Program-made: the position numbers and the translations under genes
Shown: in pieces, positions 974 to 3,773 of the stretch
Layout of the letters: each line of letters opens with the position of its first letter
Numbering within the stretch: the stretch's first letter is position 1
The notes under the pieces: model-generated
What the model was told of the DNA's origin: nothing
Seen by the model: only the letters and a program-made list of their open reading frames with translations
Databases searched by the model: none
DNA from: Hyphomonas beringensis
GTDB lineage: Bacteria; Pseudomonadota; Alphaproteobacteria; Caulobacterales; Hyphomonadaceae
Direction of reading: 5' to 3'
Assembly (NCBI RefSeq): GCF_000682755.1
Contig: NZ_AWFF01000026.1
Span: forward strand, 1-64,000
Length of the DNA: 64,000 nucleotides

Positions 974-1041
974 CCGCGCGATGTGGGGCATGGGCCAGGG
1001 GATGGCAAGGCTGGGGTGCAGGGGTGCAGCCTATACCGGTC

Positions 1042-1128
1042 TCATCTTGAGCGAAGTCGAAGGATGAACGGGCCTAGACCCGAAAGCTTCCCCGCACGCG
1101 CACGATCCTTCGACTTCGCTCAGGATGA
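1042..1128. repeat. Paired inverted repeat (REPIN-like), upstream copy
   Basis: A forward unit at 1042-1067 containing gagcgaagtcgaaggatg is followed 37 bases later by the same unit inverted at 1105-1128, so the pair can fold into a long hairpin. It ends 14-17 bases before the GIY-YIG gene start. The unit resembles a dispersed repeat common in alphaproteobacterial genomes (from memory). An equally spaced copy lies directly after the same gene at 1547-1632. Confidence 0.8.
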
Positions 1129-1144
1129 GCGCTAGGGTGGTGTG

Positions 1145-1513
1145 ATGCGGTTCTGGGTTTATCTTCTGCAATGTGCGGACGGAAAATACTATGTCGGCTC
1201 ACATCGCGGAGACGATGTGGACGCCCGCGTCTGGGAGCACAATGAGGGCTTGAACCCAAAGGCGTTCACTTATTCTCGCAGGCCTGTGGAGCTGGTCTGG
1301 TGCGGGGAATTTTCGGACCCGACAGAGATGGTGAATTTCGAACGGCAGATGAAGGGCTGGACCCGCGCCAAGAAGGAAGCCTTTATACGCGGGGACTGGG
1401 ACAGCCTGAAATCCTTGTCGAAATCCCGCACGGCTCCGCCCATTCCGGAGAAGGGCCGTTTCTACAAACTGACCCATCCGGGTAAGCCACAAGACCCTGA
1501 CAAACCCAAATAA
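1145..1513 (+). CDS. GIY-YIG nuclease domain protein
   Basis: 122 residues in a single GIY-YIG endonuclease domain. Visible motifs are 'VYLLQ' (residues 5-9, the GIY strand), 'YYVG' (15-18, the YIG strand), a catalytic-type Arg28 in 'DARVWEHN', and Glu66 in 'NFERQMKGWTRAKKEAFI', which fits the metal-binding glutamate. Small stand-alone proteins of this kind are frequent in proteobacteria but mostly uncharacterised. Start is ATG 1145 or GTG 1142 just before it. Paired inverted repeats of one family lie immediately before (1042-1128) and after (1547-1632) the gene, which suggests a link between nuclease and repeat, as REP-associated transposases have with theirs; this is inference. Confidence 0.88.
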   Translation: MRFWVYLLQCADGKYYVGSHRGDDVDARVWEHNEGLNPKAFTYSRRPVELVWCGEFSDPTEMVNFERQMKGWTRAKKEAFIRGDWDSLKSLSKSRTAPPIPEKGRFYKLTHPGKPQDPDKPK

Positions 1514-1546
1514 AGATCGGACGCATCCCTGATCCTCTTCCCGGAC

Positions 1547-1632
1547 TCATCCTGAGCGAAGTCGAAGGATGATGCGGCAAAGCGCTAATCCGCAGCGCAC
1601 CCGCGCCCGTGCTTCGACTTCGCTCAGCATGA
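1547..1632. repeat. Paired inverted repeat (REPIN-like), downstream copy
   Basis: The forward unit at 1547-1572 and inverted unit at 1611-1632 belong to the same family as 1042-1128. The forward core matches the consensus gagcgaagtcgaaggatg; the inverted unit differs slightly (cgctcagcatga in place of cgctcaggatga). Core-to-core spacing is 52 bases against 53 in the upstream pair, and the spacers are alike (GC-rich, ending in cgcac/cgcg runs). It starts 34 bases after the GIY-YIG stop codon. Confidence 0.8.
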
Positions 1633-1747
1633 GCGCGTTCGGAAGGGCGGTTCGTGGCGGGAGTCTGGAGGGAGGGTATCGCTCCGCTCAACCCACCCTA
1701 CACTTGCTCAAGATTTATGAGAATTTCTGTCGAAAGCGCCTTGCACC

Positions 1748-2335
1748 TTAAGACGCGGCCCAGCCCATAGCGTTCAAAATTTCGTCAGCCATCCGAGATG
1801 CAGCTTGTTTTAGCATTACGCCGCCGGACAGGATAATTGCGCCTTTTAAAAAGCCGTTCACGAATCTCGAAATTAGGTCAGAAGAGAAGCGTCCCGCCCC
1901 CAAGGAGGCTTCAAACATGGCAATTTCGTGTAGCGCGATTGTGCGGTCATCTTCACTTAATTCGTTATCTGAATTAACTGAAGACTTAAGATCTTCCTTG
2001 GCAGCGCTGAGAACTTCCAGCTGCTCGTCCGTCATCTCAACGTAGTTGCGAGGGATATAGTATCCGAGCTTGAACTCGTATTCACGCTTGAGCTGTTGAA
2101 GCAATATCACCAGGCGTGCTCTAGGGTCGCGAGTTGCAACTTGAGGGCCTTGAAGGCCGGAGATGATCGTTCGTGCTTCTGCGGCAAGGCTTATGTCTCC
2201 AGATTTCCCGACAATGAAGAGAACGGAGCCTAACCACTCATGATTGACTGAATTGTCGTGCCGGAATGTCGCCTTCTCAGGAATTGATCCCAAGAGACGG
2301 ACAATCTCATTCAGAATTTGGGCATCTTCTGGCAT
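1748..2335 (-). CDS. Hypothetical protein co-oriented behind argG
   Basis: 195 residues, no family recognised. The protein is mostly helical and charged, with a glycine-rich hydrophobic segment near the C-terminus ('FLKGAIILSGGVMLKQ') that could be a membrane-associated helix. The start is ATG 2335, preceded by a strong ggaaggtgg ribosome-binding site; a TTG 12 bases upstream is less likely. It begins 13 bases after the argG stop on the same strand, so it can be read from the argG transcript. Base composition is unlike the neighbours (24 G+C in the 60 bases 1921-1980, against 42 in 3001-3060 inside argG), which hints at recent acquisition. Confidence 0.75.
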   Translation of the reverse strand: MPEDAQILNEIVRLLGSIPEKATFRHDNSVNHEWLGSVLFIVGKSGDISLAAEARTIISGLQGPQVATRDPRARLVILLQQLKREYEFKLGYYIPRNYVEMTDEQLEVLSAAKEDLKSSVNSDNELSEDDRTIALHEIAMFEASLGAGRFSSDLISRFVNGFLKGAIILSGGVMLKQAASRMADEILNAMGWAAS

Positions 2336-2348
2336 TCCACCTTCCAAG

Positions 2349-3590
2349 CTAGTTCTTCCCGAACTTCCGGTCGCGTCCCGCCAGCAGCTTGAGCCGCAAC
2401 GCGTTCAGGCGGATGAAGCCTTCGGCGTCCTTCTGGTCGTAGGCGCCGTGGTCGTCTTCGAAGGTGACGATGTCTTCCCGGTACAGAGAATAGGGGCTGG
2501 AGCGGCCGATCAGATAGGCCTGGCCCTTGTAGAGCTTGAGCTTCACTTCGCCGGAGACATAACGCTGGGAATGGTCGATGGCGGCCTGCAGCATTTCGCG
2601 CTCCGGGCTCCACCAGAAGCCATTATAGATAAGCTCTGCATATTTCGGCATCAGCTCGTCTTTCAGGTGCGCGGCGCCGCGGTCGAGCGTGGCCTGTTCG
2701 ATGCCGCGGTGGGCGACCAGCAGGATCGTGCCGCCGGGCGTCTCATAGATGCCGCGGGACTTCATGCCCACGAAGCGGTTTTCCAACAGGTCCAGCCGGC
2801 CGATGCCGTGCTTCTTGCCGTATGCGTTGAGGGCGGTGAGCAGCGTGGCGGGGCTCATTTCTTCGCCATTGATGGAGCAGGCATCGCCGCGCTCGAACCC
2901 GATGGTGATGATTTCCGCCTCGTCCGGTGCATCTTCCGGGCTGATCGTCCGCATATGAACGAATTCCGGAGCGGGCTCGGCCGGGTCTTCCAGCACTTTG
3001 CCCTCGGAGGAGGAGTGCAGCAGGTTTGCGTCGACGGAGAAGGGGGCCTCGCCGCGCTTGTCTTTCGCGATCTCGATGCCGTGGGATTCGGCGAATTTCA
3101 GAAGGTCTGTCCGGGATTTGAAATCCCAGTCGCGCCATGGGGCGATGACCTTGATGTCCGGGTTCAGGCCGTAATAGCCGAGCTCGAAGCGGACCTGGTC
3201 GTTGCCCTTGCCGGTCGCGCCATGGCAGACGGCGTCGGCGCCGACCATGTCTGCGATCTCGATCTGGCGCTTGGCGATCAGCGGCCGGGCGATGGAGGTG
3301 CCGAGCAGGTAGACGCCCTCATAGACGGCATTGGCGCGGAACATCGGGAAGACATAATCGCGCACAAAGTCTTCGCGCACATCCTCGATGAAGATGTTTT
3401 CCGGCTTCACGCCAGCGGCGAGCGCTTTTTCGCGTGCGGGCCCCAGTTCCTCGCCCTGGCCGAGGTCTGCCGTGAAGGTCACGACTTCCGCGCCGAACTC
3501 TGTCTGCAGCCATTTCAGGATGATCGATGTGTCGAGCCCCCCGGAATAAGCGAGGACGACTTTTTTCGGGGCGGAACCTGTCTTGGCCAT
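2349..3590 (-). CDS. argG: Argininosuccinate synthase
   Basis: 413 residues, the usual length. ArgG joins citrulline and aspartate at the cost of ATP to form argininosuccinate, the penultimate step of arginine synthesis. The N-terminal PP-loop ATP site 'SGGLDTS' is at residues 16-22, and other family blocks such as '[13 protein letters not shown]' and 'YETPGGTIL' are present. The ATG at 3590 has an aaagg ribosome-binding site about 10 bases upstream. It is transcribed away from the coiled-coil protein gene, and argB lies elsewhere in the window (30024), so arginine genes are scattered. Confidence 0.97.
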
Positions 3591-3773
3591 GAAGCTGTAC
3601 CTTTCTTGTGCACGCGCGCAACGGCTGTTGCCATAAGGTCCAAATGACGTGCTGACAAGCGTCGCTCTGGGATCAAGGGGATGGTTTTGGCCTGGTTAAT
3701 TAGTTAATATGAAAGGTAGGGGCATTAAGCCTGATGCCAGATAGGCAAAGGTAACCGCCGGAGGGGTTTTGAG

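Follow-up and report, generated by a model that had tools for sequence, protein, structure and literature searches.

The window, that is, the whole stretch of 64,000 nucleotides of Hyphomonas beringensis DNA that was analyzed, carries a small gene of the GIY-YIG nuclease superfamily placed between two pairs of inverted, REP-like repeats. The features of the locus are as follows.

1036..1067, + strand: left outer REP-like unit, forward copy, CTCATCTTGAGCGAAGTCGAAGGATGA (repeat comparison)
1099..1132, - strand: left inner REP-like unit, reverse copy; forms doublet 1 with 1036-1067
1145..1513, + strand: GIY-YIG nuclease gene, 122 aa (PF01541 match)
1541..1576, + strand: right inner REP-like unit, forward copy
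1607..1636, - strand: right outer REP-like unit, reverse copy; forms doublet 2 with 1541-1576
1099..1576, + strand: inferred unit, inner REP - GIY-YIG gene - inner REP (inverted), from the strongest inverted repeat and boundary comparisons

The open reading frame at 1145-1513 was intact and encoded 122 aa from its ATG, or 123 aa if the start is the GTG at 1142. The protein matched the Pfam family GIY-YIG (PF01541, E 2e-13), and the residues Y6, Y16, R28, H32 and E66 were present and were invariant in an alignment of 24 sequences. The domain and the catalytic positions assign the gene to the GIY-YIG nuclease superfamily; nuclease activity as such is inferred. No family was found when NCBIfam and PHROGs were searched with the protein. 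The AF2 model had a mean pLDDT of 82 with a low-confidence tail, and the nearest solved relatives in both sequence and fold were UPF0213 proteins (1zg2, 1ywl) and Slx1. The dN/dS of the gene against its nearest homologue was 0.12.

The arms of the left repeat pair (1041-1065 and 1105-1129) were inverted over 25 nt with 96% complementarity, and those of the right pair (1546-1567 and 1612-1633) over 22 nt with 95%. The forward copies (1036-1067 and 1541-1572) formed a direct repeat of 94% and the reverse copies (1108-1132 and 1612-1636) one of 96%. Of the inverted repeats that enclose the gene, the strongest (31 nt at 94%) was formed by the inner copies (1099-1129 and 1546-1576), and the left inner unit ends approximately 13-15 bases upstream of the ATG. 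Both doublets were predicted to fold into long hairpins, with z-scores against shuffles of -6.6 for the left doublet 1 and -5.9 for the right doublet 2. An earlier sequence-only reading had described a 122-codon GIY-YIG gene between two inverted repeat pairs with core spacings of 53 and 52 bases. The arrangement held with small shifts in the coordinates. The near-equality of the spacings held as well, but the values were slightly off, as 55 (1049/1104) and 54 (1554/1608) bases were measured from core start to core start.

Two further features were observed to the right of the element. A GTAG-type repeat at window 1671-1701 (reverse complement GTAGGGTGGGTTGAGCGGAGCGATACCC) resembles the repeats flanking RAYT genes in the genomes G037 and G039, and is present although no Y1 gene exists in the window genome. 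Between the element and argG lies an ORF of 199 aa (window 1748-2347), whose function is unknown and which gave no blastn match in the compared sister regions.

Repeat and nuclease genes in the genome

With up to two mismatches allowed, the only copies of the repeat core in the 110-kb contig were the four around the GIY-YIG gene. The 3.80-Mb genome (119 contigs) contained 11 copies at 8 sites, several of them as inverted doublets, and a reversed control gave 0 copies. The repeat is therefore dispersed and not exclusive to the GIY-YIG gene. Three PF01541 genes were identified in the genome, and the core was present only at the gene at 1145-1513. The second is a long ORF, which we take to be UvrC-like, without the core in its flanks. 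The third encodes 94 aa (L009 1218-1502), adjoins a gene which we take to be gyrase-like, and lacked the motif TGAG-N-TCGAA. A Y1_Tnp or RAYT gene was sought in the window genome and none was found.

Association of the repeats with homologous genes

Homologues in the family were compared over 105 genomes. The closest of them, at roughly 60% identity or more, mostly carried the core at one or both flanks, within approximately 50 bases, with the reverse copy upstream and the forward copy downstream of the gene. More distant homologues in the family carried different palindromes at the same position. A scan based on the protein only resulted in 80 loci from Alpha- and Betaproteobacteria, Bacteroidota, Chloroflexi and Eremiobacterota/Vulcanimicrobiota. 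The full comparison set consisted of 134 small GIY-YIG genes and 683 control ORFs from the same loci. An inverted repeat with a score of at least 15 spanned 77 of the 134 GIY-YIG genes and only 5 of the 683 control ORFs (Fisher 2e-64, with loci treated as independent), and chance is therefore excluded for the arrangement in the window. The remaining 57/134 genes had no inverted repeat at score 15 in this ungapped test. The motif TGAG-N(0-45)-TCGAA occurred at a density of 8.1/kb within 200 bp of a gene, compared to 0.40/kb in the remainder of the loci, and reversed and altered control motifs were much rarer.

Clade specificity of the repeats

A tree of the 134 small GIY-YIG genes consisted of two clades separated by a supported long branch. 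Clade 1 (n=89), which includes the window gene, was sampled from Proteobacteria, Bacteroidota, Chloroflexi and Vulcanimicrobiota; clade 2 contained 45 genes. TGAG-N-TCGAA was present within 200 bp of 86/89 clade-1 genes, compared to 6/45 in clade 2, 4/20 RAYT genes and 12% of background windows, so that the clade-2 rate equals the background level. The association of clade 1 with the motif held in every sampled class: Alphaproteobacteria 40/43 (Hyphomonadaceae 24/24), Betaproteobacteria 6/6, Bacteroidota 10/10, Anaerolineae 3/3 and Vulcanimicrobiota 1/1. Motif labels were clustered on the tree, with 10 changes against 35.9 in shuffles. Within clade 1, similarity of the repeats followed similarity of the proteins (Mantel r 0.43, 0/2000; 0.32 for pairs below 70% identity). 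The middle of the clade-1 repeat was variable, from 4-5 bases up to long inner hairpins, and the stem positions beside the conserved blocks covaried (position 2: 0.86 paired, 0.52 when shuffled).

Hairpins with the layout of CGTC REPs (AT-stem of 8-9 bp, loop of 4-5, AT, tail CCA) were found at 17/45 clade-2 genes, in 2/449 background windows and at 0/89 clade-1 genes. RAYT loci of the same family (n=20) carried GTAGGG repeats in 15 cases, compared to 12% of the clade-1 GIY-YIG loci. Even within one genome, paralogous GIY-YIG genes were found to carry different repeats (L018 and L181, L016 and L183, L025 and L184).

The sequence-only reading had found no other copy of the repeat in the 64 kb and had judged chance unlikely. 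This held, as no copy was found elsewhere in the contig and chance is excluded, but 11 copies are present genome-wide. Two outcomes had been named as refuting it, and neither was observed. Homologues in sister genomes do not usually lack flanking copies, as most of those with at least 60% identity had the core and all 24 clade-1 members of the family (24/24) had the broader motif. Nor is the repeat equally common near unrelated genes (8.1/kb against 0.40/kb), and RAYT genes have a different repeat.

Mobility of the gene and its repeats

The gene and its repeats constitute a unit of approximately 430-480 bp, which was found at non-homologous sites. The inferred window unit (1099-1576) matched the unit at such sites in Henriciella and Bradyrhizobium. 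Three Bradyrhizobium loci (L081, L082, L084) had only the gene and repeats in common, at unrelated sites, and their homology did not extend past the outer edge of the right repeat, while on the left it ended at the repeat or just beyond it. The same picture was seen in Henriciella (L016, L018, L019), where the shared unit again lies at unrelated sites. Empty sites were identified in relatives: the flanks of L018, when joined, matched a contiguous stretch in G006, G009 and G015; for L019 this was so in G015 and G028. The comparison of strains that had been suggested as a check on the sequence-only reading thus showed that the unit lies at unrelated sites and that relatives have empty sites. No target-site duplication was visible at the empty sites, which are only about 80% identical with borders blurred by divergence. 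Doublets in G012 had spacings of 51-61. The dN/dS of the GIY-YIG genes was 0.06-0.24, including between copies at different sites, and the protein is therefore under purifying selection. Plasmid and phage collections contained only 5 and 4 homologues, respectively, all of them distant.

The site of the window element, between a GNAT gene and argG, was compared in relatives. The gene was present in G047, while G065 had a decayed window-type gene (L265 ~3280-3600) with the right core repeat retained. The syntenic argG site in G074 contained the right doublet alone (86.6% over window 1541-1682). A clade-2-like GIY-YIG gene on the opposite strand occupied the site in G043 and G053 (L255, L257). 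No clean empty site for the window element itself was obtained among the compared sister regions.

Repeats without the gene

An intact clade-1 gene was present in only 4 of 42 Hyphomonas genomes, with a remnant in one more, whereas most of these genomes contained the core. About 50 core copies each were found in G045 and G076, which are without a clade-1 gene. In Henriciella, genomes with the window-type gene had more core copies (median 20.5 against 2.0, p 0.003); in Hyphomonas, no association between copy number and gene presence was observed (p 0.21). A 434-bp unit is present in several copies in G045, where it is bracketed by the same core; its 97-aa ORF is unrelated and is not a GIY-YIG gene (L152 1501-2000). 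The repeat can therefore bracket other DNA. Together with the gene-less repeats, these units imply that the repeat outlives the gene, or that something else also moves it. The 97-aa ORF family itself had no Pfam match and was present in 9-17 copies in several Hyphomonas genomes (G045; also G041, G058 and G056), and in 5 diverged copies in the window genome.

Interpretation and rival explanations

The window probably contains a REP-type mobile element with a small GIY-YIG nuclease, and not a Y1 (RAYT) transposase, as its dedicated protein. We assign this reading a probability of about 0.75; there is no biochemical evidence for it. The association, the specificity of the repeat and the mobility of the unit are shown by comparison. 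Recognition of the hairpin, its cleavage, and copying or transposition by the GIY-YIG protein are inferred. The proposal of the sequence-only reading, that a GIY-YIG nuclease takes the role of the Y1 transposase for this repeat, is thus supported, but that it recognizes, cuts or spreads the repeat remains inference.

The rival that survives best is hitch-hiking, in which the GIY-YIG gene ends up in intergenic spots that are rich in repeats, or rides on repeats mobilized otherwise, without acting on them. In its favor are the multicopy 434-bp unit in G045, where the core brackets an ORF of 97 aa that is not GIY-YIG, the many genomes with the repeat and without the gene, and the GNAT-argG site, which looks like a hotspot given the clade-2-like gene in G043 and G053. 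Against it, the two GIY-YIG clades have different types of repeat, which also differ from the type at RAYT genes within the family, paralogues of the same genome have different repeats, the association holds across phyla, and control ORFs of the same loci do not show it. Hitch-hiking is therefore considered unlikely.

A second rival is that the repeats are ordinary REPs mobilized by a RAYT, or by another transposase in trans. The doublets, hairpin units and inverted REPs around the gene are indeed the architecture of RAYT loci (PMC2817692), and RAYT-like genes were present in 21/105 genomes of the family. On the other hand, the window genome is without Y1_Tnp, GTAGGG was found at 15/20 RAYT loci but at 12% of clade-1 loci, and TGAG-N-TCGAA at 4/20 and 97%, respectively. 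In addition, no transposase gene with CGTC repeats at its flanks was found in a survey from 2013 (PMC3733652). This explanation is very improbable, and a RAYT as mobilizer of the window repeat was rejected, because none is present in the genome and RAYT loci bear other repeats. That the hairpins are purely local, immobile RNA elements (terminator, mRNA stability or autoregulation of the nuclease) has hardly any support left, for although the doublets fold strongly and the left repeat lies beside the ribosome-binding region, about 13 bases from the start codon, the gene and repeats occur at non-homologous sites with empty sites in relatives and gene-less copies are scattered through genomes.

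If the GIY-YIG protein is the dedicated protein of the element, it would be predicted to bind its cognate hairpin, with the conserved TGAG and TCGAA blocks and the covarying stem, extruded as a cruciform or as a single-strand hairpin. The protein would then nick or cut the hairpin hydrolytically. Repair of the break may copy another repeat-flanked segment into the cut site, although this last step is more doubtful than probable. Such repair copying would spread doublets in trans, and the gene itself more rarely.

A bolder reading is that small GIY-YIG nucleases form a second class of REP-mobilizing enzymes, with a chemistry unrelated to that of the first, and that each clade serves its own hairpin family. 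Clade 1 would serve the CTGAG/TCGAAGG repeats found in several phyla; clade 2 would serve the CGTC REPs, perhaps with dRS3 and the Rickettsia elements among them. The balance of evidence leans slightly towards this reading, and Neisseria and Rickettsia loci were not covered. If it is true, the CGTC REPs gain the partner they were said to lack.

Few dispersed repeats are as common in bacteria as REP-like palindromes, and the CGTC superfamily was left without an enzyme in 2013 (PMC3733652). For a large class of such repeats, small GIY-YIG genes are the likely enzyme partner, one that had not been reported. No link of GIY-YIG proteins to REPs was found in the open literature searched (subscription papers and preprints were outside the scope); the nearest match merely lists GIY-YIG and REPs as separate accessory genes. 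A GIY-YIG partner, if confirmed, would explain the origin and spread of these repeats and would mean that a hydrolytic nuclease, too, can drive non-autonomous elements. The window system offers a directly testable pair of enzyme and repeat in marine and soil bacteria that are harmless.

Comparison with known systems

GIY-YIG homing endonucleases and Penelope-like elements use a GIY-YIG nuclease for mobility. Unlike these, the window unit consists of the gene and hairpins only, without intron, intein or reverse transcriptase. The UPF0213 and Slx1-like proteins resemble the window protein as its nearest solved relatives. Slx1 acts together with Slx4 on branched DNA, and to our knowledge no UPF0213 or Slx1-like GIY-YIG protein has been linked to repeats.

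CGTC REPs, among them Neisseria dRS3 and Rickettsia RPE-4/RPE-6, are short palindromes, mostly in inverted dimers and mostly in Alphaproteobacteria, which according to the 2013 survey have no dedicated transposase (PMC3733652). The clade-2 GIY-YIG repeats fit their published layout (17/45, background 2/449), whereas the clade-1 repeat of the window fails it (0/89) and has a variable middle with TGAG/TCGAA blocks.

The closest resemblance is to the REP-RAYT systems (REPtrons; BIMEs, REPINs), in which RAYT genes flanked by inverted REPs have been described (PMC2817692). As in these systems, the window gene lies between two inverted hairpin repeats, further copies of its repeat are scattered both singly and as inverted doublets, and repeat and protein co-vary (tree labels, Mantel test). 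The system is likewise chromosomal, with few plasmid or phage matches, and paralogues have their own repeats. The differences are that the window protein is a GIY-YIG nuclease (PF01541) and not an HUH/Y1 transposase, that the repeat lacks the GTAG tag (GTAGGG at 12% of clade-1 loci against 75% of RAYT loci), and that the repeat is present without the gene in many genomes. The chemistry of GIY-YIG nucleases is hydrolytic. The window element thus works like a REP-RAYT system but fails its defining enzyme and tag, and is therefore placed among REP elements as a kind with a different enzyme.
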